Shown here: positions 12,739-56,292 of the stretch, piece after piece
How positions within the stretch are numbered: the stretch's first letter is position 1
Layout of the letters: each line of letters opens with the position of its first letter
NCBI GenBank assembly: GCA_031277015.1
Contig: JAISLZ010000035.1
Span: 1 to 56,292 of the forward strand
Reading direction: 5' to 3'
Length of the DNA stretch: 56,292 bases
DNA from: Eubacteriales Family XIII. Incertae Sedis bacterium
GTDB lineage: Bacteria > Bacillota > Clostridia > Peptostreptococcales > Anaerovoracaceae
Position numbers and translations under genes: made by a program
The notes under the pieces: model-generated
What the model was told of the DNA's origin: nothing
Database searches by the model: none
The model's input: only the letters and a program-made list of their open reading frames with translations

Positions 12739-14235
12739 TTAGAACCTGAAATAGATGAATGGATTGTAACTGTTGCCCACCAACATGATTGTACTCACGA
12801 ATATCAGGGCGCCCAACCAAACGCATCGGATAGCAAAGATGCACTTCGCCATCGTGCCACCGCGGTATTCAGCTATGCGATAGAGTCGCGACACTGCACG
12901 GCCGATCGGAAGGCAAGCGAAAGCGGCGACGCTCAACAGGAGCAGATTGTTCTTGAGCAGGATCGTAGTCCCTGTGTCCGTGAGCGCACCCGTTCCGAAC
13001 ATACGGCTGACGCACAAGGCGGCGTCCGTGATGTCCGTGAAGTAGAACAACGCCCACCCTATGAGAAATACGAGTACGGTGTAGACGTGTAGCAGGGCGG
13101 TCGGCCATCGCTCCATGTGCTTTCTTAGCCAAATTTTTTCAAAGGCGATGAATCCGAACCAGTAGAGTCCCCACAGTACGAAGTTCCAATTTGCTCCGTG
13201 CCACAGGCCCGTCAATGTCCAGACGATGAATAAATTTCTGTACTGGTGTGTACGTCCGCCACCGAGTGGTATGTAGACATAGTCGCGGAAGAAAGAGCCG
13301 AGCGATATGTGCCACCGCCGCCAGAACTCCGAGGCCGACGCGGCGATGTAGGGGTAGTTGAAGTTCTCCTTGTACTGAAAACCGAATATCCTCCCCATGC
13401 CGATGGCCATGTCCGAGTATGCGGAGAAGTCAAAGTATATCTGGAGCGCGAACATGACCACGCCGAGCCACGCACCGAGCATGCTGAGCTCGCCTAGGCC
13501 GCCGGCGCCGAGCAGGGAGTTTGCAATGTCACCGCAGACATTCGCGAGGATGGCCTTCTTTGCGAGGCCAACGAGGAACCTTTCGACGCCGCGCCCGGCC
13601 TCCTTCAAGTCGGTTGCGCGTTGTTCTATGCTCTCCGCGATGTCACCGTATCTGACTATGGGGCCCGCCACGAGCTGTGGAAACATGGACACGTAGGTCA
13701 GAAGCCTCGGGAACGAACGCTGCGCGGACGCATCGCCGCGGTACACGTCTATCACGTACGACATGACCTGGAAGGTATAGAACGATATGCCTATCGGCAG
13801 GGCAATATCGGGTACGGGCAGATCCACGCGAAACACCGAATTGATCGTGCCGACTAGAAATCCCGTGTATTTGAACACCCCTAGCAAGCCGATATCCACG
13901 GCTATCGCACAGACGAGGAACAGCTTCGTCTTCTGTTTTGCAGCGAGAGCCAGGGACTCCCTTTCCGCCTTTTCCGCTTTGGACATGCGGCCGCGTTTCG
14001 TACGCTTAGGGGGGATGCCGGCGAGCCTCGCTTGCTCTATCCTCAGCGTCAGTGACCAGTTTACTAAGACTGTCGCCAGCATGAGGAACACGTAGATGGG
14101 TTCGCCCCACGCGTAAAACAAAAGGGAAAACGCGATGAGCACACCATTGCGCCATGGGACGTCACTGCGCGCAAAATACATCACCACGCATGCCGGCAAA
14201 AAAACATATAAAAAAAACAGGCTCGAAAATACCAT
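12739..14235 (-). CDS. MBOAT family O-acyltransferase (AlgI/DltB-like)
   Basis: A polytopic membrane protein of about 498 residues. It carries the MBOAT hallmarks FWRRWHISLGSFFRDYVYIPLGG and the catalytic-histidine segment LTGLWHGANWNFVLWG, plus an N-terminal VFSSLFFLYVFLP typical of AlgI-like acyltransferases. It should move acetyl groups across the membrane for O-acetylation of a cell-surface glycan, with the adjacent DHHW protein as extracellular partner. The ATG at 14235 is favoured over an upstream in-frame start at 14277, since TGCTATACT ends 6 nt before it (leaderless) and the protein then begins at the first membrane helix. Confidence 0.92.
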   Translation of the reverse strand: MVFSSLFFLYVFLPACVVMYFARSDVPWRNGVLIAFSLLFYAWGEPIYVFLMLATVLVNWSLTLRIEQARLAGIPPKRTKRGRMSKAEKAERESLALAAKQKTKLFLVCAIAVDIGLLGVFKYTGFLVGTINSVFRVDLPVPDIALPIGISFYTFQVMSYVIDVYRGDASAQRSFPRLLTYVSMFPQLVAGPIVRYGDIAESIEQRATDLKEAGRGVERFLVGLAKKAILANVCGDIANSLLGAGGLGELSMLGAWLGVVMFALQIYFDFSAYSDMAIGMGRIFGFQYKENFNYPYIAASASEFWRRWHISLGSFFRDYVYIPLGGGRTHQYRNLFIVWTLTGLWHGANWNFVLWGLYWFGFIAFEKIWLRKHMERWPTALLHVYTVLVFLIGWALFYFTDITDAALCVSRMFGTGALTDTGTTILLKNNLLLLSVAAFACLPIGRAVSRLYRIAEYRGGTMAKCIFAIRCVWLGALIFVSTIMLVGNSYNPFIYFRF

Positions 14236-28865: not shown

Positions 28866-28897
28866 TTGTATGAATTCAGTTCTGCGTGATATATAAT
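28866..28897 (+). promoter_or_regulatory. left inward promoter of the candidate invertible cassette
   Basis: TTGTAT (28866-28871) with TATATA (28890-28895, 18-bp spacer) or the overlapping TATAAT (28892-28897, 20-bp spacer). It points into the glycosyltransferase genes and lies outside the left inverted repeat, so it would stay in place if the segment inverted. Confidence 0.5.
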
Positions 28898-28912
28898 AAC
28901 AGTTGAACAGGC

Positions 28913-28934
28913 GATAATTCGTTATTATCGGTGA
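28913..28934 (+). repeat. 22-bp inverted repeat, left copy (candidate recombination site)
   Basis: Perfect inverted match to 34221-34242. Its core is CGATAA, TTCGTTA, TTATCG: two 6-bp arms in inverted orientation around an asymmetric 7-bp centre, the layout of a tyrosine-recombinase core site. It sits between a promoter and the first glycosyltransferase. It could instead be an operator or an mRNA hairpin. Confidence 0.7.
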
Positions 28935-28969
28935 GTTGGTATGGGCCAACAACAAGGGGGATGAGTATA

Positions 28970-30079
28970 GTGGTAAAGCTATTGATTGTATCTAACAACA
29001 TGGCTGGCGGGGGTGCGGAGAAGGATTTGATTATGTTCTTGAACGAGCTGAGGCCCCCTGAGTATGCCGTGGATTTGCTCATTATCAAGAACAAGGGCGT
29101 GTATCTTGATTCAATACCTGACTATGTCAACGTGCAAGTTATGATTGATGTGACACACGGGGACAAGCCTTTTCCCTCTGATACAGCGGTTCTTGAATCT
29201 TATTGCGAGGGCTTCATCTCCAATAATTATAACGTGGAAGTCGCGTTTCTTGAAGGGCCACCCACAAAGCTTGTCGCATGTCACGCAAATTCCCATGCCG
29301 TGAAGATTGCCTGGGTACACATAGATCTTCAAAATACTCACTGGACTTATTCGTATTACAGATCGGACGAGGAGGAACGCGATATTTATAGCAAATTTGA
29401 TGAAATCGTGTTCGTATCAGAGGGGGTACGAGAATCATTCTTTCAACGCTTTACTGCCTTGCAAGCCCGTTGCACTGTTATTACAAACCCTACTGACGTT
29501 GATGCGATATTGAGTCAGGCGAAAGAATATGATACGCCATCTTACCATTTTTGCTTCTGTATCATTGGCAGTTTAAGTACAAGAAAAGGACATAGCAGAC
29601 TTTTGTACGCGATGAGCCGTCTTCATTCAGAAGGCTTTTGTTTTCATTTGAATATAGTCGGCGAGGGAACAAATTACGGTAATCTGAATGAGTTGGCACA
29701 TATCCTGAATATAAATCCATATGTACATTGGATTGGATTTAAGAGAAATCCTTACCCCTACATCGCGAATTGCGACGTTGTCATATCATCTTCCATCGCC
29801 GAAGGGTTCCCATTGGTTCTTTGCGAGTCGCTCTGCCTTCACCAGCCAATCATTGCCACCAACTGCGCCGGAAGCAGGGATGTTCTTCAGTATGGGCGCT
29901 TTGGGTTATTGGTAAATAATACAGAAGAAGGCATCTATCAAGGGATGAAACGTGTTTTGGTGGACAGCGCATTCCTCTCTGAACTGAAGGACCGATCCCG
30001 CTTGGGGTCGGGTAGCCTGAAATACGATGAAATCATGGAACAAGTACATACCTTGTTGCATCAGCACAACGAGGTATAG
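28970..30079 (+). CDS. glycosyltransferase family 4 (GT-B fold)
   Basis: About 369 residues. N-terminal LLIVSNNMAGGGAEKDLIMFL is the acceptor-side start of GT4 enzymes that build capsule, teichoic or other surface glycans; the donor site is marked by SSSIAEGFPLVLCESLC (the E-x7-E motif) and the glycine-rich GSLSTRKGHSRL. Start is taken as the GTG at 28970, 9 nt after AAGGGGG; an ATG at 28961 touches the ribosome binding site. No membrane segment or signal peptide, so cytoplasmic. Base composition is clearly more AT-rich than flanking tyrA and galE, suggesting transfer. Sugar specificity unknown. Confidence 0.9.
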   Translation: MVKLLIVSNNMAGGGAEKDLIMFLNELRPPEYAVDLLIIKNKGVYLDSIPDYVNVQVMIDVTHGDKPFPSDTAVLESYCEGFISNNYNVEVAFLEGPPTKLVACHANSHAVKIAWVHIDLQNTHWTYSYYRSDEEERDIYSKFDEIVFVSEGVRESFFQRFTALQARCTVITNPTDVDAILSQAKEYDTPSYHFCFCIIGSLSTRKGHSRLLYAMSRLHSEGFCFHLNIVGEGTNYGNLNELAHILNINPYVHWIGFKRNPYPYIANCDVVISSSIAEGFPLVLCESLCLHQPIIATNCAGSRDVLQYGRFGLLVNNTEEGIYQGMKRVLVDSAFLSELKDRSRLGSGSLKYDEIMEQVHTLLHQHNEV

Positions 30080-30085
30080 AAAAAG

Positions 30086-31054
30086 ATGGTCAGCATTATA
30101 ATAATCATAAAGGACACTAAGGAATATCTCGCCAAATGCTTGGACTCTATCAAAAACCAGACTCTCGGCGATATACAGGTCATTGCGGTAGATGACCACT
30201 CATTGGAATCATCAGAAGATATCATTGCGCTGTATCAGGGCGCAATGAAGATTTCCTATCTGAATTTAACAGAGGAGCGAGGACCCGGAGGCGCCCGAAA
30301 TGTTGGGTTTCAACATGCAACCGGGGAATACATTTGTTTTTTGGACAGTGATGATTGGCTGGATTTGATCTATTTAGAAACCGCTGAAAAGCTTATGTCC
30401 GAGCACCAAGCAGATATAGGTATGTGCGGCTTAATTCGAAATTACGACTCGGTCGCATACACTCCCGTATATAAATGTAGTTACCAAAATTTACATATAC
30501 TAGATGGAACTACAGCTTTTCGTATGATGTCCGACCAATATGACTTTGGCGTGACAATCAGCCCATCGCCGGTAAGCAAAATATACCTAAGAACCTTTCT
30601 TGAGAACAATAAAATTGAGTTTTTGGAAAATGTATATTATGAGGATGTCCTGTTTGCTTTTCAGACGCTACTTACCGATTGCAAGGTAATTACCATCCCT
30701 GATGTATATTACCATCATTATCGGCGGCCTGGCTCCATAGTGCAGTCTCTGTCGCAACGCCATTTTGATGATTTCAACACGGTTTTCACCAAGGTTAAGG
30801 AATACTTGATAGAAAGCCATCAATACGAAGATTACGCTTTTAATTATTATAAAATACTAGAACGATTCTACAACCTAATCATCAGGCAGGTATTCCAGTT
30901 TTCGAAATCTGAACAGGAAAAGAAGAAATGGATGCAGTATTCTTTTAGCATCATAAAAGAGTTGATAGTACTGGAGGAATACATGGAGTATTTCAGCGCC
31001 GAGGATATTCGCAGGCATCTCCAACCCTTTTTAAAAGATACGACCCTGCTATAA
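30086..31054 (+). CDS. glycosyltransferase family 2 (GT-A fold)
   Basis: 322 residues. The GT2 signature is complete: VSIIIIIKDTKEYLAKCLDS, nucleotide-binding VDDHS (about residue 35), GPGGARNVG and the metal-binding DSDD at 87-90 (CFLDSDDWLD). The C-terminal third has no clear transmembrane helix. It begins 6 nt after the GT4 gene and forms an operon with it, probably adding successive sugars to one surface glycan. Its TAA stop is separated from the stop codon of the convergent NTPase gene by a single base, with no terminator between. Confidence 0.92.
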   Translation: MVSIIIIIKDTKEYLAKCLDSIKNQTLGDIQVIAVDDHSLESSEDIIALYQGAMKISYLNLTEERGPGGARNVGFQHATGEYICFLDSDDWLDLIYLETAEKLMSEHQADIGMCGLIRNYDSVAYTPVYKCSYQNLHILDGTTAFRMMSDQYDFGVTISPSPVSKIYLRTFLENNKIEFLENVYYEDVLFAFQTLLTDCKVITIPDVYYHHYRRPGSIVQSLSQRHFDDFNTVFTKVKEYLIESHQYEDYAFNYYKILERFYNLIIRQVFQFSKSEQEKKKWMQYSFSIIKELIVLEEYMEYFSAEDIRRHLQPFLKDTTLL

Positions 31055-31055
31055 A

Positions 31056-34000
31056 TCAATCTCCCCGTGGATCGATATAATACCAGTCCCTCTCAAACTT
31101 CTGTGTAAAATAAAAATCCATGCGTTTGAATGAAAACAGACCACGTTTAAGTACTTTTTGGTTATGGCGGATAACACGCATATAACTACGTGTCGACTGA
31201 AAAGTCTCCGCCGCCTTTTCAAGGGCATCGCATGCCTCATTTGTATTATTATGCGCGAGATGGTGCAGTGCGAGGGTTTCATAATAGAACCCTTTCAATT
31301 TGTCCCTCAGCTTTCGTGGCTTTGCAAGATCGCGCAAAAAACGCTCATCCGCCTTATCAAAGTCCCCAATAACATACAATATGGCGCAGAGTGCTAGATT
31401 GCGGTGCCTGTAACTGCTGTAATAATCTCTATACGCAGCGTCTGTAATAGCCTCGATACGGGGAATCAGTGTGTTGTTGCGGCTACGGAGAAACTGTAGG
31501 TATAGATATTGGAACTCCACCAAGCACCATTGCTTACTTGTCTTCTCTATATTGTCCGGCAAAAGTTCATGCGCGTCCTTGGTATACAGAAACGCCCTGT
31601 CAATATCCACCGTATACAATGTATGCGCATATCTGACGTGGAAATCAATGCAGTGATGAAGCAAATAAGCTTCGCTCTTTAAGACTTTTCTCCATTGCAG
31701 AAACATCCGCTCCGAACGTCTTTTACCTCGGGATGACTGAATCATGATTCTCATATTTTCACATATAAAAGGTATCTCATATTCTTTTTCCATGGAGGAA
31801 ATAGTGCCAAATATTCTTTGCAGTCTGAATACTTTTTGAAATTGCCTGTAGTATTTCATGGCCTTTGAATATCGAAACATATTATAATTGCTATTCATCA
31901 GCTCAAGTAGCAAATCCAATTGCAGAAAGCGCATTTTGGGAGAGTTGTAGTCCTTGATTTCATTGTAAATTTTTTCAAAGCAGTCATAGCCGATATATCT
32001 ATGACTGCAATTAACTGCCGCATAAGCGTAATCAAAATATAGTTGGTAATATACCTCGCCGTTGTTGGCATTTTTCAGGATTGACGTAGAATGTGCGCCC
32101 TGGAAATATCCATCGAGGATGTGACATACCACGTAAAAACGTTCATCTTCACGCAACTTTGAAATACGTTTTGCTGCCTGTAGCAGTTCGTCAAGGGAAT
32201 TGTCCAAGAGGAACTTTTCTCGGGCTTTGTCCACTTCATCTACATAATCCAATCCGAGCGCCTTCTTGCTGATACGATGGGTTTTACGAAAAATATCTTT
32301 ATAGATATCATGAAAAGGGATCAGCTGGTTTTGCTCGTTGAGTTTTACCAATCCTGTATTCAAAAGTTCGGAAGCATCGTTATTGTCTTCAATAGGGACG
32401 CCATTGGGATTTGTATAGATTGCATGAAGCAATTTTTCACGTTCGCCATTCATGAGATTCTTGAATTGTTCTAACACTAGTTCCTCTCCCATGTTCCCGT
32501 TCACAAAGGGACCATACAATTTGATGAAATCATCCAAATTGTCAATAGAGTCGAAATTAATAATATATCTCAGAAACTCAATAAGCATAATTATGTTCGG
32601 GAAATAGTCCCCTAGTACCAAATGAGGGATTTCCAATTTAAGTGAGCGAGTATTTTGTAATACTGAAGCAATATCTGAGGTTTCAACCCTGCATTCGAAT
32701 TCATTGATTTCAAATTTGCTTTTTAAGTTACGATAGAAATCTGAATCCAAAATATAATCTTGTCCTGCAAACAGAAAAAATATAGGGCAATTTTTGCGTT
32801 GTAATTCACGAAATAAAAATAGCAAAAAAGAGAGCACTGCGGGATTTAAATTCTGAAAATTATCCAAGAAAAGATAGCGAGAGTTAAGATCGCATTGTTG
32901 CGGCAGAATATCGGCTCTTTTCCTCGTGATGTGTGAAAAGAATTCTTCCGACTTTTCCGGATAGCCTCGTAGAGAGACCAGTTTCATGAAGTTTTTTGTA
33001 ATTACTCTTCTCCCTATATTTTTCCTGATCTTTTTTATGTAGGAGGAATCAATTTCATCTGGATTCACGTACGGAAGCAGCAGGAAAAAAATTAAATCGC
33101 AGATTTTCTTGGCGTTTTCCACATGATCCCCAGAAAAATTGTGATAAAAAATCGTTTCGTTAGTTATTGAGCTTGATTGCATGAAGCGATTGACTAAATA
33201 CGTTTTCCCTGTTCCTGACTTGCCGTAAATGGTGGCAAATCTCAACCGTTGTTCCTGACGGAAACACTCCGCTATATCATTGAGTTCAGATAGAATCTCA
33301 GCTTGGGACTGAATTTCTATATGGAAATCTGCACTGTTCTGTAATTCAATCTTTTTCTTTAGCAGGACTTCAATAACGCTTGAATTATGCAGGATTTTGA
33401 ATAAATCTAAACGGCAATACTTTCTCCCATCGTTCCCAACGTTGATTCCCTGAAAACAATCCGTGAAACGGAACACAATATTGACTGCATTTTCTCTCGG
33501 CTCTAGGTCGAGCGACTCGGTCATAAGCTCTATGCCATCGTACTTCGCTTCAAACGAGATTGTTTGCTTTACTGGGCTTAAAAGTTTAAGATACGCCCTA
33601 TAAAGTTTTTCAAAATAGAGAATCTTACATTCTTCTGCATACCCATTTTCATTAGACTGATATGGGTACACGCTTATATCCTCCGACACGGACAAGGGGA
33701 CGTCTTGAGGTTTTGGTTTCGTCGTTGCTTCTGGGAAGAAGCGCTCATAGACATCTATATGTTTTGCCAACCAATACTCGATAACATTTTTAGTACAAAA
33801 ATAAACATCCTCACAACCAATCGCTTTTTGAAGAGCGATTCGGACATCAGAGATGACTTTTGAATGAATATCAATGTTTGTTACGAAAATGATCTTTGAA
33901 ATTTGTTTGTGGAAAATGGAACTGACAATCGTGGCGTCCAGGCGATAGCGAGCTAAATATTTTTCAGTGGATGAGTATTTAGCTTCCATCCACCAAGTCT

Positions 34001-34181
34001 CACCAATCTCTCCGGGAGGATGAAACCCGACGATGATAGCATAGGCGTCTTTATTCCCATCCCGAGTTTTCTTTGTACTCCTCCATTTTCTATTAGAATC
34101 TTTAAACTCGACATTAACGTATTCAAACGCCAATTTCTCAAATCCCGAATATCCTTCGTGAATTTTCCCCCAATCAATCAT
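31056..34181 (-). CDS. PD-(D/E)xK nuclease + P-loop NTPase + helical-repeat protein (Avs-like defence candidate)
   Basis: A 1041-residue protein. Residues 1-130 look like a Mrr-type restriction-endonuclease fold: GFEKLAFE, Asp45 and Glu66-Ala-Lys68 (WWMEAKYS) form a PD-(D/E)xK pattern. After a linker, residues 295-650 hold a P-loop NTPase: Walker A GKSGTGKT (310-317), Walker B YLFLDN (Asp430) and FFLFAGQD as sensor strand. The rest (about 650-1041) is helical, with TPR-like periodicity (KAMKYYRQFQKVFR). Nuclease, STAND-like NTPase and C-terminal repeat sensor is the order in Avs anti-phage proteins; membership is inferred. AT-rich; no methyltransferase or partner nearby. Promoter and inverted repeat lie just upstream. 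Confidence 0.8.
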   Translation of the reverse strand: MIDWGKIHEGYSGFEKLAFEYVNVEFKDSNRKWRSTKKTRDGNKDAYAIIVGFHPPGEIGETWWMEAKYSSTEKYLARYRLDATIVSSIFHKQISKIIFVTNIDIHSKVISDVRIALQKAIGCEDVYFCTKNVIEYWLAKHIDVYERFFPEATTKPKPQDVPLSVSEDISVYPYQSNENGYAEECKILYFEKLYRAYLKLLSPVKQTISFEAKYDGIELMTESLDLEPRENAVNIVFRFTDCFQGINVGNDGRKYCRLDLFKILHNSSVIEVLLKKKIELQNSADFHIEIQSQAEILSELNDIAECFRQEQRLRFATIYGKSGTGKTYLVNRFMQSSSITNETIFYHNFSGDHVENAKKICDLIFFLLLPYVNPDEIDSSYIKKIRKNIGRRVITKNFMKLVSLRGYPEKSEEFFSHITRKRADILPQQCDLNSRYLFLDNFQNLNPAVLSFLLFLFRELQRKNCPIFFLFAGQDYILDSDFYRNLKSKFEINEFECRVETSDIASVLQNTRSLKLEIPHLVLGDYFPNIIMLIEFLRYIINFDSIDNLDDFIKLYGPFVNGNMGEELVLEQFKNLMNGEREKLLHAIYTNPNGVPIEDNNDASELLNTGLVKLNEQNQLIPFHDIYKDIFRKTHRISKKALGLDYVDEVDKAREKFLLDNSLDELLQAAKRISKLREDERFYVVCHILDGYFQGAHSTSILKNANNGEVYYQLYFDYAYAAVNCSHRYIGYDCFEKIYNEIKDYNSPKMRFLQLDLLLELMNSNYNMFRYSKAMKYYRQFQKVFRLQRIFGTISSMEKEYEIPFICENMRIMIQSSRGKRRSERMFLQWRKVLKSEAYLLHHCIDFHVRYAHTLYTVDIDRAFLYTKDAHELLPDNIEKTSKQWCLVEFQYLYLQFLRSRNNTLIPRIEAITDAAYRDYYSSYRHRNLALCAILYVIGDFDKADERFLRDLAKPRKLRDKLKGFYYETLALHHLAHNNTNEACDALEKAAETFQSTRSYMRVIRHNQKVLKRGLFSFKRMDFYFTQKFERDWYYIDPRGD

Positions 34182-34220
34182 TCCTGAAAATGCCCCCCGC
34201 TACTGTTCTGGAAGTGGATA

Positions 34221-34242
34221 TCACCGATAATAACGAATTATC
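34221..34242 (-). repeat. 22-bp inverted repeat, right copy (candidate recombination site)
   Basis: Perfect reverse complement of 28913-28934, 40 bp upstream of the NTPase start codon and 270 bp from the tyrosine recombinase gene. The arm before the shared 22 bp differs by one base from the left copy (G instead of C). The identical asymmetric centre means recombination between the two would invert the 5.3 kb between them. Confidence 0.7.
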
Positions 34243-34279
34243 CGTTGTTCCTGCGAGGTATTCTGTTGCTCGCGGAAGC

Positions 34280-34307
34280 TGTATAATATTACCCTTGCAT
34301 CAAACAA
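34280..34307 (-). promoter_or_regulatory. right inward promoter of the candidate invertible cassette
   Basis: On the minus strand TTGTTT (34302-34307), 16-bp spacer, TATACA (34280-34285), directed at the NTPase gene through the right inverted repeat. On the plus strand the same AT-rich stretch reads TATAAT (34282-34287) and may also serve the recombinase gene. The stretch 34243-34512 holds no gene I can support. Confidence 0.45.
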
Positions 34308-34512
34308 TAGGAAGCTACGTAGTTTTTATGCCCGCCTACTTTTCTTTGGCGCTCTTGCATGTCGATAAAGCGCACAGTTTCGGTGTGTTGCCTTATGCGG
34401 TCCGGGCGGCTGAACTGCATGCTTAGTTTTGATATTAGTAGTCATTCCTGGCGCCTCTTTTTGCTGTTTGATGCGAGGGTAGTAATCACTTATAGAAACG
34501 GAGGAGATTGAA

Positions 34513-35424
34513 ATGGAACTATTTGGGATGCATATTGACGATTATTTGGACTATTGCCGGTACAGCAAGAGGCTGAGTTCCAAAACGCTTATCGCCTACA
34601 AAACAGATCTGAAGCAGTTATCTGCCCACGTAGGTACAGGCAAAGACGCTTCTGAGAAGGATACCTTGAAGGAATATATCTCGTTACTGCATCAAACGTA
34701 TAAATCTACAAGTATCAAACGCAAGATAGCGTCCGTTCGCGCCTACTACAATTATCTGGCGGATGAGAATATTATTGACTTTAACCCGCTTAGCCTATTG
34801 AGAATAAAGCTTCGCGAGGAGAAAAAGCTTCCCAAAACACTGTTGTTCCATACGGTGTGGCGCTTGTTGGATTGTGTATATGAAAAATACAGGAGCGACG
34901 CTCATCCCGCGTTGCTAAGGGACATTTTGATCATAGAGCTTCTGTTCGCTACGGGCATGAGGGTGTCGGAGTTGTGTTCTCTGAAAGACGAGGATGTGGA
35001 CATTACGGCGGGCAAGATCAATATCTTTGGGAAGGGTTCGAAGGAGAGGATTGTTCAGGTGTGTAATTCGGAGGTTCTGGCAAAATTGTTAGAATACAGG
35101 CAGGTGTATGATGCCGAGATCAATGCTACAGGTTATTTCTTTGTGAACCGTCTACGTAGACGCTTCTCGGAACAGTCCGCCAGGCATATGATTTGCCATT
35201 ACGCGAAGGCGGCGGGGATCATGCAGCATATCACGCCACATATGTTCAGGCATACCTTCGCCACGCTTCTACTTGAAGAAGATGTGGACATCAGGTACAT
35301 TCAAAAAATGCTCGGGCATTCGTCGATCAGGACCACCGAAATCTACACGCATGTTGCTTTAGAAAAGCAAAAGGAGATATTGGCTCTCAAGCATCCACGC
35401 AACAAGATGACTCTGGGACTGTGA
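34513..35424 (+). CDS. tyrosine recombinase (XerC/D-like site-specific integrase)
   Basis: A 303-residue recombinase. N-terminal SAM-like DNA-binding domain (about 5-95) and a C-terminal catalytic domain with all expected residues: Arg150 (ATGMR), Lys174/Lys177 (FGKGSKER), His243 and Arg246 (HMFRH), His269 (LGHS) and nucleophile Tyr278 (EIYTHV). GGAGGAG lies 7 nt before the ATG. It is short like XerC/D and DNA invertases of the tyrosine class rather than phage integrases. Its place next to one of two inverted 22-bp core-like sites suggests it inverts the adjacent cassette; a general XerC/D role is less likely because the gene sits in an accessory block. Confidence 0.93.
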   Translation: MELFGMHIDDYLDYCRYSKRLSSKTLIAYKTDLKQLSAHVGTGKDASEKDTLKEYISLLHQTYKSTSIKRKIASVRAYYNYLADENIIDFNPLSLLRIKLREEKKLPKTLLFHTVWRLLDCVYEKYRSDAHPALLRDILIIELLFATGMRVSELCSLKDEDVDITAGKINIFGKGSKERIVQVCNSEVLAKLLEYRQVYDAEINATGYFFVNRLRRRFSEQSARHMICHYAKAAGIMQHITPHMFRHTFATLLLEEDVDIRYIQKMLGHSSIRTTEIYTHVALEKQKEILALKHPRNKMTLGL

Positions 35425-52127: not shown

Positions 52128-52201
52128 GCGGATGTAGTTCAATGGTAGAACACCAGCTTCCCAAGCTGGATACGAGGGTTCGATTCCCTTCATCCGCTCC
52201 A
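52128..52201 (+). tRNA. tRNA-Gly (anticodon CCC)
   Basis: Full cloverleaf: acceptor GCGGATG/CATCCGC, discriminator T and encoded CCA; anticodon stem CCAGC/GCTGG with loop TTCCCAA, giving CCC (reads GGG). Its 3' end (GATTCCCTTCATCCGC and CCA) recurs at 52291-52310 and 54998-55017, so it looks like the integration site of the adjacent island. Confidence 0.96.
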
Positions 52202-52256
52202 TGCGAGAAACGCCTCCTTTACGGAGGTGTTTCTTGCATCAGGATGAAGGGAATCG
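52199..52256 (+). repeat. 58-bp direct repeat, copy A (hairpin after tRNA-Gly)
   Basis: Nearly identical (one mismatch) to 54820-54877. It contains a strong hairpin, GAGAAACGCCTCC pairing with GGAGGTGTTTCT, that can act as terminator for tRNA-Gly, followed by GGATGAAGGGAATCG, which is the reverse complement of the tRNA-Gly T-arm/acceptor region. Confidence 0.85.
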
Positions 52257-52290
52257 AACCCGAAAGGGCGTGGGCGTAAAGCGCCTGCGT

Positions 52291-52310
52291 AATTCCCTTC
52301 ACCTGCTCCA
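52291..52310 (+). repeat. att-like copy of the tRNA-Gly 3' end (imperfect)
   Basis: AATTCCCTTCACCTGCTCCA resembles the tRNA-Gly 3' end with two changes. It also shares about 14 bases upstream with the copy at 54998. Together with GAAGGGAAT at about 52246 it can form a large hairpin. Confidence 0.6.
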
Positions 52311-52363
52311 AGATAGGTTGACAAGCAAGATGGCTTGATTTCACAGTTTGTCAGCCTTTTTCT

Positions 52364-52570
52364 TTTACGGATTCCATTTTAAAGCAGCCAAAATCGGAAA
52401 ACAAATCTGCGGGTGATAGCCTGGGCAAAATCGCGAACGATTTGGAAAGGAGAGGCGTCTGTTCTCCAAACGGCAACAGTACGTGGAGCCGTCAGGCAAT
52501 AAGCAAACTTCTTTCAAATGAGAAATATGTCGGCTATAGTTTGCTCCAAAAATGGCTTATGTCACTCTGA
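52364..52570 (+). pseudogene. serine recombinase remnant
   Basis: A short frame translating to GDSLGKIANDLERRGVCSPNG, then STWSRQAISKLLSNEKYVGYSLLQK, before a stop at 52568. This matches the C-terminal part of the Recombinase domain of large serine recombinases (the 'G..SP.G..W....I..iL.NekY.G' pattern). There is no start, no catalytic resolvase domain and no Cys-rich C-terminus, so it is a decayed fragment. It fits with past integration at tRNA-Gly. From 52571 to 52725 I see no gene. Confidence 0.75.
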
Positions 52571-52725
52571 ATCATTTTGGATTGTACGTCATCAGGTTTT
52601 GCTGTACAGTAAAATCGGAGAGTGTGATGGCCAAGAGCATTCGCCGTATGGGATTGTCTCTGTGCAGGATTCAGCGGAAGTACGTTTGTCTGTGAATCGA
52701 TTTCCTATTATTCATTGCTGAACTG

Positions 52726-52734
52726 TGGTAAAAT
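52726..52734 (+). promoter_or_regulatory. extended -10 promoter of the 344-residue protein gene
   Basis: TGG-TAAAAT with 9 nt between it and the ATG at 52744 and no Shine-Dalgarno: a nearly leaderless layout. Confidence 0.45.
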
Positions 52735-52743
52735 GATTAGTAA

Positions 52744-53778
52744 ATGGAAAATATATTAGATAACAAAAATGATGTTCATGTTGGTACTATACTGGATTCG
52801 GTCAACCAGATGAGAGAACGTGTCCATAGGCTGCAAAAACAAATAATGATAATGACTTTACCTAGAATGGAGAATAAAAATATGCCCGATCCCGGAAGGG
52901 AAGAATTGGCTAAACATGATACATTCCATAAATTCGATGATTTTCAGTATCTTGAGTCGCGTGTTATTTATCATTATTTTAATTACGCTGATGCCTGTAA
53001 AAGTGCTTTGCGTCAAATCGAGAAAATGCCATTTGATTTTCACAACGGAATATCCTTCACCATACCTTCAAATTGCTCCTATGAGATGGCATTTGCATTT
53101 GAGGGTATAGTATCGGCATTTGGCATAACAATGGAAACCCCTGTCGTTGAAGAAGTAAAAAGAGGTCTATCAAGCAAGATTTTTAATGATTTCCCTCGAC
53201 GCCAGATTCAGCGCGACAATGTAGATGGGCTTTATTGGAGAATCAACGTGCTAAGGAATAGGGCAGTACATTTTGATGAACCACGCTATCACAATGCTGA
53301 TTCAAATGCACAGCGCTGGTTAGGATTGTCATCTAAACCATTAATGGCAGAAATAAAAGATGGCAAGTTGTCTCTTCAATGTACACTTTTTGATATTGCT
53401 GAAAATCAGTTAATTAAGGATATGATCTCAAATGAAATAATTAATAAGAAAACATACGTCCAAGGTTTTGGGGGGAACGTGATAGATTTGCTTTTTCCTG
53501 AAAAATCTCCGAAAGGATATGGCAAAAAAGCTCCTAACTTGTTGATGTATGGCGACCAGCTAAAGCGTTTTGACTATTTCAGGTCGTTTTGGACGCTTTC
53601 TGACGAGATGTTGTCATATCTCGAAAAAGTGAACCACTTATTTATGCGCTATGCTTTGGAGAACTTATCAAAGCGGGCAGATATTAAAGAAATGACAGGG
53701 CATCAATTCCAATATGACAATTCGGGTTCTTATAGCATAAGAGATGTTTATAATTTAAGGAGTAGTACTTTGCAATAA
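52744..53778 (+). CDS. hypothetical protein with HEPN-like RNRAVH motif
   Basis: 344 residues, markedly AT-rich and Lys/Asn-rich compared with the core. I recognise no full domain. The first 45 residues can form an amphipathic or coiled-coil helix; the middle is helical and contains RNRAVHFDEPRYH, with Arg171-Asn-x3-His176 matching the R-x4-6-H motif of HEPN ribonucleases (as in many abortive-infection and toxin proteins). The C-terminal part has aromatic-rich helices (FDYFRSFWTLSDEML). It sits in the tRNA-Gly island beside a toxin-antitoxin-like pair, so a defence role is possible but unproven. Confidence 0.75.
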   Translation: MENILDNKNDVHVGTILDSVNQMRERVHRLQKQIMIMTLPRMENKNMPDPGREELAKHDTFHKFDDFQYLESRVIYHYFNYADACKSALRQIEKMPFDFHNGISFTIPSNCSYEMAFAFEGIVSAFGITMETPVVEEVKRGLSSKIFNDFPRRQIQRDNVDGLYWRINVLRNRAVHFDEPRYHNADSNAQRWLGLSSKPLMAEIKDGKLSLQCTLFDIAENQLIKDMISNEIINKKTYVQGFGGNVIDLLFPEKSPKGYGKKAPNLLMYGDQLKRFDYFRSFWTLSDEMLSYLEKVNHLFMRYALENLSKRADIKEMTGHQFQYDNSGSYSIRDVYNLRSSTLQ

Positions 53779-53814
53779 TAGCAGTTAAAAAGCGTCTTGC
53801 TGACCACTGAAAAT

Positions 53815-53843
53815 TCGACATCGCGCGCACTGACGTGTATAAT
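53815..53843 (+). promoter_or_regulatory. promoter of the antitoxin/GNAT pair
   Basis: TCGACA (53815-53820), 17-bp spacer, TATAAT (53838-53843), followed by AAGGAGG at 53861-53867. Confidence 0.8.
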
Positions 53844-53875
53844 GGTTACAAAAGCCGCGAAAGGAGGTGTGCGTC

Positions 53876-54049
53876 ATGGCGACAAGTAGCATATTTAATA
53901 ACATCCGCATTACGAATAACGAGCAAGCAGAACTTTTGGTGAACGCGATGGAGACCGCCGAGAAAGTGGCGAAGGAGTCAACTCGCAAACCAGTTGAGTT
54001 CAAGGTTCTTCACCAAGGGGAACTCAAAGGCTTTTTGAAGGGGAAATAG
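53876..54049 (+). CDS. small antitoxin-like protein
   Basis: 57 residues, MATSSIFNNIRITNNEQAEL followed by LLVNAMETAEKVAKEST: a short beta strand and an amphipathic helix, resembling small clostridial proteins encoded just before GNAT genes. AAGGAGG lies 8 nt before the ATG; an in-frame GTG 9 bases upstream overlaps the ribosome binding site. It is probably the antitoxin of a type II pair with the next gene, whose reading frame is shifted relative to it. The assignment rests on size, position and N-terminal pattern. Confidence 0.75.
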   Translation: MATSSIFNNIRITNNEQAELLVNAMETAEKVAKESTRKPVEFKVLHQGELKGFLKGK

Positions 54050-54081
54050 CCATAGAATTTCTTACGTTCAATCTTGCGGCC

Positions 54082-54651
54082 TTGATCGCAGACGAGGGTT
54101 TGAAGGAAGTGCAATCGCTTCTTTCAACATTTTCGAGCAGATATGATCCGGACATCGAACAATTTCTGAAAGAACGGGCGATTGATTTTTCCAATCGCGG
54201 TATAGCGAGGACCCATCTTGTGATGTTGCGTACAGTTGATACGCCAATACTGCTTGGATATTTTACTCTTACCAACAAAATTTTGAGTATCCCATGCGGC
54301 GCCATTTCAAAAGGTATCGAAAAAAGGCTGTCTCGATTTGGACCGCTCGATGAAAATACGGATTCATACTCCGTTCCAATGCCCCTGATTGCTCAAATTG
54401 GCAAGAACTATACGAATGGAGTTGATGCTAAGATTAGTGGAGATGATTTGGTAGGCATAGCCTTGAAGCGGATCGGTGCAATTCAATTTGACCTCAGCGG
54501 CCAATATGCTTACATAGAATGCGAGGACAAGCCCAAACTTATTGAATATTACAAACGCAATGGCTTCATTCGCATCGACAATGGTGAACCCAGCAAACTT
54601 TACAATCATGGGAAACCATATCTTGTTCAGATGCTGAAACATATTTCATAG
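54082..54651 (+). CDS. GNAT-fold acetyltransferase, candidate toxin
   Basis: About 189 residues. GYFTLTNKI forms a GNAT-like central strand, ISGDDLVGIALKRIGAIQFDL lies around the acetyl-CoA region, and YIECEDKPKLIEYYKRNGFIRI is the classic GNAT C-terminal half. Such proteins paired with a small antitoxin (TacT/AtaT-like) acetylate charged tRNA; here that is inferred. The start is unclear: the only usual initiation codon in frame is a TTG at 54082, without Shine-Dalgarno, while coding-like frame continues upstream to an ATA at 54052 that follows AAGGGG and lies 2 nt after the antitoxin stop. It may use a rare start or be defective. Confidence 0.75.
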   Translation: MIADEGLKEVQSLLSTFSSRYDPDIEQFLKERAIDFSNRGIARTHLVMLRTVDTPILLGYFTLTNKILSIPCGAISKGIEKRLSRFGPLDENTDSYSVPMPLIAQIGKNYTNGVDAKISGDDLVGIALKRIGAIQFDLSGQYAYIECEDKPKLIEYYKRNGFIRIDNGEPSKLYNHGKPYLVQMLKHIS

Positions 54652-54819
54652 AGCGACTGCCCCATATTCATTGAAGAGTAGATGTTTTTTTCTATGACAT
54701 GATGATACCGCGTCATGGTTGTAGTATTACTGATAATATACATAAGTTCGAGGGTATTTTTGCGTAGCATCGTTAGATTTTCAACATAAAACGCACCCGA
54801 TCATTTTTGTTCAGTGATT
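54652..54819. other. non-coding, AT-rich gap
   Basis: Part of the 645-bp gene-free stretch 54652-55296. I see no ORF, promoter or clear terminator in this first part. The rest of the stretch holds the second 58-bp repeat, the att-like sequence and an inverted repeat listed separately. Confidence 0.5.
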
Positions 54820-54877
54820 CCATGCGAGAAACGCCTCCTTTACGGAGGTGTTTCTCGCATCAGGATGAAGGGAATCG
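54820..54877 (+). repeat. 58-bp direct repeat, copy B
   Basis: Second copy of the hairpin-plus-inverted-tRNA segment found after tRNA-Gly (52199-52256), with a single difference. Here no tRNA gene precedes it. The 120 bp that follow are GC-rich, with further short dyads such as GGGCGTCCA/TGGACGCCC around 54925-54945. Confidence 0.85.
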
Positions 54878-54997
54878 CGCATTGGATGAGACACGCCTCC
54901 GGCTCGCAGCTACCCGACCGGGCGGGGGCGTCCAGTGGACGCCCACGGTCCGAGCACGCGGAGCGAGTGCAGGACGGCAGGCGCGAAGCGTCTGCGT

Positions 54998-55017
54998 AAT
55001 TCCCTTCATCCGCACCA
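54998..55017 (+). repeat. att-like copy of the tRNA-Gly 3' end (right end of island)
   Basis: AATTCCCTTCATCCGCACCA equals the tRNA-Gly 3' end in 18 of 20 positions. Together with the tRNA it brackets a 2.8-kb AT-rich region. I take it as the right attachment site of the island. Confidence 0.7.
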
Positions 55018-55112
55018 ATGCAGATGTTCTTACAGAAATTAATGGGTTCGGGAAGTACATCCGTTTCTTTTTGCGGAATATCAAACAGCATTTTGCGTGG
55101 TGTGCGCTCCGA

Positions 55113-55129
55113 TGTAGTTTATAACTACA
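55113..55129. repeat. 17-bp inverted repeat
   Basis: TGTAGTT and AACTACA separated by TAT. Could be an operator; it lies about 180 bp upstream of the next gene. Nothing else in 55018-55296 is recognisable. Confidence 0.4.
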
Positions 55130-55296
55130 CCTGATGTTTATCTATTTGGTTATTAACATTGGGTGTTGATTCAGACCATGCTTGTATTTACAATTCATTT
55201 TAAATCTTATGCTTTTACTGAACTTGAAAGAAGGACAATTATGAGATGAAAAATCAAATGTTAAGCTCGCTACGAATTACCAATGAGGAAAAAACG

Positions 55297-55578
55297 ATGA
55301 AGACAATTGTTATTGCTTTGTTGTGTATTGCCATGATGCTATCTTCGGCCTTTAGTGTCTTTGCCGATGGCTCATCTGAATCAAGGAAAGACGTGACATC
55401 ATTTGCTGATTCTCAGGGGCAATATGGCAACAATAAGAAAGGTTCGGTGGCTACAAAGCTTGCATACGATAATTGTGGTAAAAATACACCGATTGATCTT
55501 ACGATGAAAAAGAAATCGGGAGGAAACAGTTATAGATCCACGTTCAGTATAAAAGACGTAACGTATACTCATTCGTAG
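55297..55578 (+). CDS. small secreted protein, unknown
   Basis: 93 residues: signal peptide MKTIVIALLCIAMMLSSAFS with cleavage probably after VFA, then a short hydrophilic mature part rich in Ser, Gly and Lys, with one Cys (YDNCGKN). GAGG lies about 9 nt before the ATG at 55297; an in-frame ATG at 55246 would put 17 polar residues before the signal peptide. I do not recognise a family. The next gene starts 6 nt after its stop. Confidence 0.7.
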   Translation: MKTIVIALLCIAMMLSSAFSVFADGSSESRKDVTSFADSQGQYGNNKKGSVATKLAYDNCGKNTPIDLTMKKKSGGNSYRSTFSIKDVTYTHS

Positions 55579-55584
55579 GAAATC

Positions 55585-56292
55585 ATGATGATCAACATTA
55601 TGAAGAGAAGTGCGCTGTCAGCTTTGGCCACCGCACTGTTGACGGCAACAATCATACAGATTGGATGTGCGTCTACCACGGATACGACGAAAGAAACAAA
55701 TACTCCAAAAATTGCCGAAGACTTATATATATCATTCTGCACAACCAATGAAGTGAAAAGGCAACCGGAAACCTTTGAGAGCCATGTGTACACGTATGGG
55801 CTGCAGTCGGGCGAAGTATCAGAAATGGGTGTTGTCCCATACAATTCGGGATACCCCCTCGCGGTATACAGCGCAAAGGACAAACAGATATATTATTCGT
55901 ACAGGGAAAACGAAAAGAATTGGAGGAACTCGCCACCACAACTTTATTCCTATGATCCCGCTACAAAAAAAGCGACTCAATTGACGGACAATCTTGCCGG
56001 CATGAATTATATTGTGCCGCAAAAGGACAAAGTGATTTTAGTTGCGTCTTCTATAGAAGAGGAAAATCTTTTGCCTTATGTATACGAACGCGGAAAGGGC
56101 GCTTCGCTTGTCTCAGGTTGGAACAAAGATTTGGGAATCAGAAAGCTCTATATAAATCCAAACAATGAAGAGGCCATATGCTCTGCATATTCGTCTAACG
56201 AAAGAAATAATCGATTTGAGTATCAGACGGATGAATACCCCTTTGAAGAGCCGCCGGAGTCAGTTTACTCGTTATTAGGAAAAGACAAGGTG
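55585..56292 (+). CDS. lipoprotein, partial (cut by window end)
   Basis: An open frame from ATG 55585 (or 55588) running off the right edge, at least 236 residues. The N-terminus is a lipoprotein signal: basic KR, a hydrophobic stretch and TIIQIGCAS with the lipid-modified Cys. The mature part has blades such as LYSYDPATKKATQLTDN, suggesting a TolB/WD40-like beta-propeller. TAGGA precedes the start. It lies 6 nt after the small secreted protein, probably in one operon. Likely extracellular, membrane-anchored; role unknown. Confidence 0.8.
   Translation, partial: MMINIMKRSALSALATALLTATIIQIGCASTTDTTKETNTPKIAEDLYISFCTTNEVKRQPETFESHVYTYGLQSGEVSEMGVVPYNSGYPLAVYSAKDKQIYYSYRENEKNWRNSPPQLYSYDPATKKATQLTDNLAGMNYIVPQKDKVILVASSIEEENLLPYVYERGKGASLVSGWNKDLGIRKLYINPNNEEAICSAYSSNERNNRFEYQTDEYPFEEPPESVYSLLGKDKV

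Follow-up and report, generated by a model that had tools for sequence, protein, structure and literature searches.

A putative recombinase-driven inversion switch opposing glycosyltransferase and nuclease-NTPase genes, with relatives in Lachnospiraceae and related Clostridia

The window analysed here is a stretch of 56,292 nucleotides from an Eubacteriales Family XIII. Incertae Sedis bacterium (contig JAISLZ010000035.1). It carries a 5.3-kb cassette which, taken as a whole, is in our opinion probably a recombinase-driven inversion switch. An Xer-like recombinase (34513-35424) would recombine two opposed GATAAT-N5-RTTATC sites and flip the cassette between them. The cassette is composed of two convergent, apparently promoterless arms. 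Their transcription would have an external origin, most likely a single main promoter located in the flank that lies farther from the recombinase (left, tyrA side). Depending on orientation, the glycosyltransferases or the nuclease-NTPase would come under this outside promoter, leading to alternate expression. As assembled, the cassette has its glycosyltransferase arm towards the tyrA side, and the glycosyltransferases would be ON if the one-promoter model holds. Other members of the family would follow the same design, a large immune-type sensor/effector alternating with enzymes that modify surface structures or metabolites.

Anatomy of the window cassette

The extremities of the cassette (28913-28934 and 34221-34242) form a perfect 22-bp inverted repeat in the window sequence, GATAATTCGTTATTATCGGTGA, for which the chance expectation, estimated as n^2/2/4^22, is ~1e-5 in the 20 kb examined. 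Extended to 28905-28934 (+ strand) and 34221-34250 (- strand), the repeat matches over 27/30 bp. Each copy is an internal palindrome with arms GATAAT/ATTATC and a 5-bp centre; the core site, GATAATTCGTTATTATC, is at 28913-28929 in the left arm and, on the minus strand, at 34226-34242 in the right arm. GC content is 0.406 in the segment, 0.458 in the recombinase gene and 0.541 in the rest of the window. An earlier note on this DNA had described an AT-rich 5.3-kb segment bracketed by a perfect 22-bp inverted repeat, and both coordinates and composition agree with it. Its reading of the site as CGATAA-TTCGTTA-TTATCG is valid for the left copy, where it equals GATAAT/ATTATC with a 5-bp centre, but not for the right copy, where the outermost base differs. 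The segment thus has the opposed repeats with matching asymmetric cores that characterize an inverton.

The core site, of the GATAAT-N5-RTTATC type, is present in two copies in the 1.98-Mb assembly, both bracketing the cassette; the remaining matches to the 14 arm positions carry 2 mismatches each and are not more frequent than those to a reversed-pattern control. Since the site occurs at only these two places, the 22-bp sequence does not behave as a plain operator upstream of many unrelated genes. The cassette was assembled in a single orientation, with a contig continuous through both sites.

Arm 1 carries, on the + strand, a GT4-type glycosyltransferase gene (28931-30079, with a true start possibly near 28971) followed by a GT2-type glycosyltransferase gene (30086-31054). 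Arm 2, convergent with arm 1 and 1 bp apart, encodes on the - strand (31056-34181) a 1041-aa protein with a PD-(D/E)xK-like N-terminus, an AAA/STAND-type P-loop NTPase and a helical C-terminal part. The PD-(D/E)xK-like pattern (D41, D45, E66-x-K68) is located within the first 150 residues, the P-loop is detected by Pfam, and this pattern and the Walker A are kept in two homologues. The label 'Avs-like' previously given to this protein may fit its predicted domain architecture but finds no echo in PADLOC, where none of the Avs models matches and the sole match is mad8 (2.8e-4). AlphaFold models were poor (pLDDT 41 for the full length with a 3-row alignment, 38 for the N-terminal 150 aa) and a PDB sequence search gave no match. 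In 119 family genomes, a search insensitive enough to miss the L047 and L078 homologues retrieved only one 59-residue fragment of the nuclease-NTPase (P0002). In a genus mate, the tyrA orthologue is directly followed by an IMP-dehydrogenase-like gene and the cassette is absent; within this genus the cassette is an insertion after tyrA.

The tyrosine recombinase gene (34513-35424, + strand), identified by profile matches and XerD alignment, lies outside the cassette and points away from it. It is intact, and 271 bp separate its start from the right repeat copy, in agreement with the complete gene at about 270 bp reported earlier. Its product has a catalytic domain with the R/K/HxxR/H/Y residues and a SAM-like N-terminal domain, as is required of an Xer-type enzyme. 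The closest profiles are XerC and XerD, whose NCBIfam equivalog cut-offs are not reached (241.6 and 240.5 bits vs 335.15 and 329.6), and the protein can also be aligned to solved XerD. Integron-integrase models scored far under cut-off (104.7 of 265 and 70.5 of 435 bits), and the sites are paired inverted palindromes, not the attC/attI sites which accompany an IntI-type integrase in integrons. The inner arms ATAA...TTAT appear to resemble the inner portion of dif sites, which would suit an Xer-type enzyme. A viral-contig scan for the recombinase gave no match.

Two other features of the window were observed. Directly upstream of the recombinase gene, a second inverted repeat (34287-34306 / 34465-34484, 20 nt, 90%) surrounds 158 bp and could represent either a site for a regulator or a small switch of its own acting on the recombinase. 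Further on, a low-GC stretch (0.40-0.46) at about 52200-56000 immediately follows a tRNA-Gly gene (52128-52201) and is a possible integrated island.

The site/recombinase family and inversion in relatives

A recombinase scan using one genome per species yielded 71 related loci, nearly all from Lachnospiraceae or related Clostridia, with the site consensus GATAAY-N5-RTTATC. An exact site was found at most 320 bp from 41 of the 71 recombinases, or 47 when one mismatch was allowed, for a background of 0.044 per kb; at several further recombinases the contig stops at that place. This family-wide association, together with the 271-bp distance in the window, ties a site-specific recombinase to the sites, another property of invertons. 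The 5-bp centre varies among loci (46 kinds, none self-complementary), and at 23 of the 26 loci that have two or more exact sites the centres of the pair are exactly reverse-complementary. Matched centres in inverted placement are the signature expected if strand exchange needs centre homology, the paired sites then co-evolving. One of the 26 multi-site loci has a pair in direct orientation. L063, where identical sites at 12945 and 20422 are 7.5 kb apart in direct orientation, was rejected as an inverton; such sites would give excision instead of inversion. Near-matches to the site in the relatives L006 and L007 were put down to chance: they lie in or beside housekeeping genes, at a rate near that of the reversed-pattern control, with no recombinase in the fetched flanks.

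In the recombinase tree, read without two rows from minus-strand loci (f_L012 and f_L016) that were possibly mis-oriented, the window recombinase falls inside the site-family clade, where it belongs to a group of 11, with weak support, that includes the pair from Lachnospiraceae bacterium 28-4. Recombinase relatives in the window's own family (36-50% identity) are often located beside genes for proteins that, by sequence, are S-layer-homology-like; such neighbours fit an ancestral recombinase role of choosing between alternatives. At L119 (7846-16488), two tandem wider-family recombinases adjoin two convergent S-layer-type genes whose 5' ends are homologous; this locus is a likely S-layer switch in the family to which the window belongs.

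The cultured isolate 28-4 holds one family cassette in opposite orientations on two scaffolds (L096 and L097). Over 4.6 kb of recombinase flank the two are identical, and they diverge at the site; the first 4600 bp of L096, at the scaffold end, equal L097 exactly only once the segment between the L097 sites has been inverted in silico. Inversion by this sister system is therefore essentially shown. The flipped order that the earlier note had proposed to look for in related genomes is also seen in the orthologous pairs L057/L064 and L060/L073, which have the recombinase and recombinase-side flank in common and homologous cargo. Moreover, 20 of the 65 visible contig ends lie at most 100 bp from a site, where site density predicts 0.8 (~24-fold excess), and several MAGs have two flank contigs that terminate in one and the same site, sharing it and then diverging. 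These breaks are the outcome that mixed orientations would produce, to which repeats longer than the assembler k-mer could also contribute. Since the window recombinase nests in the clade that contains the 28-4 pair, we infer on good grounds that the window cassette inverts as well. The proposal of an invertible cassette with a dedicated tyrosine recombinase is strongly supported in this way via its relatives, by site association, matched centres, the 28-4 scaffolds and the flipped orthologues.

Cargo of the two arms

The same cassette design recurs in dozens of Lachnospiraceae genomes. Family cassettes span 2-9 kb and nearly all those with matched centres have two convergent arms. One arm is usually a single large protein of the TIR/STAND/nuclease/TPR/pentapeptide type: TIR with STAND-TPR (L041, L079), TIR-type (L104 and, weakly, L058), STAND/NB-ARC/AAA-type (L085, L086), nuclease-like AAA (L047, L078, L092, 28-4 and the window), ThsA-type (L108), or else a TPR or pentapeptide protein. 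For some of these large proteins (pentapeptide, 563-aa TPR) a defence role is neither known from tests nor predicted. The opposite arm consists of enzymes, of which a D-Ala-D-Ala-ligase-like ATP-grasp is the commonest; radical SAM, GT2, nucleotidyl transferase, SHMT-like, HAD and acetyl- or methyltransferase types were also found.

The pairing of glycosyltransferases with a nuclease-NTPase pointed out previously is genuine and recurs elsewhere. Each of the three homologues of the window nuclease-NTPase found outside this genome (L047, L078 and 28-4) faces a GT2 gene, accompanied by a nucleotidyl transferase in L047 and by an uncharacterised gene in L078. In 28-4 the homologue cassette (C2 791621-795841) is within a glycosyltransferase-rich, polysaccharide-type gene cluster. 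The NTPase arm may act against phages and the enzyme arm on the cell surface. A coupling of receptor change with immunity, as the earlier note had it, is nevertheless too narrow for the family, because its enzyme arms consist of ATP-grasp, radical-SAM or SHMT-like proteins more often than of glycosyltransferases alone. For the Lachnospiraceae cassettes, we tentatively propose, with a little less than even confidence, that an intracellular immune sensor/effector and a surface/metabolite pathway are alternative heritable states, shuffled between genomes, which would provide bet-hedging between coat change and arming. As a rule, phase-variable surfaces and genes for phage defence are investigated separately. 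If true, one switch would explain both the co-location of immune-type and glycan genes and broken gut metagenome assemblies, and how receptor change trades off against intracellular immunity could be tested directly in the existing isolate 28-4. GATAAT-N5-RTTATC pairs beside the recombinase clade also offer a searchable signature for candidate defence genes.

The L064 and L108 loci have the same flanks and ~92% identical recombinase DNA, with no cargo in common, and in L085/L093 and L097/L100 cargo is likewise replaced between conserved flanks. Judged by these comparisons, whole cassettes have been exchanged between loci. In L108 (4704-8308), a ThsA-type gene (SIR2-STALD) and a ThsB-like TIR gene occupy opposite convergent arms, together with HAD and thymidylate-kinase-like genes; domains were assigned by Pfam, and this ThsA-type protein has the best PADLOC ThsA score among the cargo (3.8e-98).

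Further arrangements were noted in 28-4. In one region of this genome (G116:C2 777661-795857; L150, L154, L155), several cassettes are arrayed within a gene cluster rich in glycosyltransferases, and their CTTGT and TAAAA sites are repeated. Since no recombinase of the clade was detected in this region, a recombinase may act on the array in trans. At G116:C1 143764-150369 (L149), a gene for a 1373-aa NACHT-type protein, with a SIR2-like start by eye, is convergent with HAD and ATP-grasp/methyltransferase protein genes, and a more distant tyrosine recombinase is nearby. Genes recognised as transposase-like from their sequence are found within cassettes L058, L062, L085 and L092, perhaps tolerated through silence of one arm.

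Promoters, alternative readings and known systems

No consensus promoter was found beside either window site, and the best candidates did not score better than shuffled sequence (p=0.18 left, 0.25 right). The outer flank on the side away from the recombinase contains a perfect TATAAT (28892-28897, + strand), a candidate -10 box located 15 bp before the left site, with a weak -35 and not significant. The first gene of each window arm starts ~40 bp inside the site (commonly 25-200 bp in relatives), which leaves little room for internal promoters. Promoters were scored at 27 loci, 18 of which have the recombinase pointing into the cassette ('toward' layout). In these 18, a significant sigma-A-type promoter was found in the distal outer flank of eight, for example TTGTCA-17-TATAAT at 33 bp from the site in L078, and on the recombinase side of one. 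This suggests a fixed distal promoter serving whichever arm faces it, although over all 27 loci the contrast between distal and proximal flanks does not reach significance (Wilcoxon p=0.21). In loci with the recombinase directed away from the cassette, as in the window, promoter signal is weak on both sides, and for these the one-promoter model is putative.

The inward-facing promoters which the earlier note had placed on both sides are not supported: the window candidates do not exceed chance on either flank and, in 'toward' relatives, signal comes mainly from the distal flank. If both flanks nevertheless drive inward, inversion would swap strengths or regulation and neither arm would be switched off. 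This exchange, which we find rather unlikely, would accommodate the Thoeris-type genes on both arms of L108: if the ThsA-like and ThsB-like proteins are needed together, their position on opposite arms is a misfit with strict either/or expression and suggests that, at this locus at least, both sides drive some expression. Read-through from the recombinase could also feed the near arm in the 18 'toward' loci, in which the site is often 5-20 bp after the stop codon. However, the recombinase side lacks an above-chance promoter in 16 of these 18 loci at p<=0.07 (one reaches p<=0.05), and neither window flank is above chance.

The replacement of cargo between conserved flanks (L064/L108, L085/L093, L097/L100), the genus mate with no cassette after tyrA and the lower GC of the segment are also compatible with a dormant or mobile cassette platform, integron- or island-like, whose sites would serve chiefly for acquisition or swap of gene cassettes, inversion being a non-regulatory by-product. 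We hold this to be improbable, as nearly all centre-matched cassettes have the convergent two-arm layout with first genes near the sites and as centres differ between loci, so that direct site-to-site transfer from one to another is not simple. A regulator-binding palindrome that flanks the genes by chance, with the recombinase as an unrelated neighbour, would account for the palindromic nature of each repeat copy, but is nearly excluded by the presence of just two copies in the genome, by the family-wide recombinase linkage with pairwise-matched variable centres and by the inversion seen in 28-4.

The preferred reading, a recombinase-driven inversion switch, can be compared with several known systems. 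In the Campylobacter sapA S-layer and Ureaplasma mba/UU376 systems, genes are inverted while the promoter is fixed, and alternatives take turns at the expression site. The cassettes described here would similarly invert genes rather than a promoter, but surface proteins alternate in those systems whereas here an immune-type protein would alternate with biosynthetic enzymes. The switches of Clostridioides difficile flip short regulatory segments; the present family, in contrast, would flip gene cassettes of 2-9 kb, each with a pair of convergent arms. RecV and other tyrosine-recombinase switches of C. difficile control phase variation through events termed small inversions (PMC5903667). They have in common with the window a clostridial tyrosine recombinase and inverted repeats, and C. 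difficile Cdi7 also has a recombinase nearby (PMC5903667).

A survey of invertons in gut communities reports a statistical link between inverton group 139 of gut Clostridia and a nearby tyrosine-type recombinase, invertase group 35 (PMC11892184). The resemblance to the window family lies in this association of a clostridial inverton with such a recombinase; the example inverton given there for group 139 is short (hundreds of bp), unlike the present cassettes (PMC11892184). The words 'defense' and 'phage' are absent from the survey's main text (PMC11892184). In E. coli, inversion by PinQ, a serine recombinase of a cryptic prophage, alters adsorption of phage T2 (PMC12529663). It is likewise a site-specific inversion, whose tie to phage resistance is shown for PinQ and presumed for the window; unlike the window cassette, PinQ acts on adsorption, with no immune gene in alternation (PMC12529663).

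Concerning the cargo, the arm-2 protein appears similar to Avs/STAND anti-phage NTPases in predicted architecture only (nuclease-like N-terminus, P-loop NTPase, long helical C-terminus), and differs from Avs in matching no PADLOC Avs model. L108 holds SIR2-STALD and TIR proteins like those of Thoeris (ThsA and ThsB) but, unlike Thoeris, on the opposite convergent arms of an inverton. The open literature searched yielded no description of cassettes in which an immune-type protein alternates with surface or biosynthetic enzymes. The inversion switch is of a known kind, and it is the proposed alternating cargo logic that appears new.
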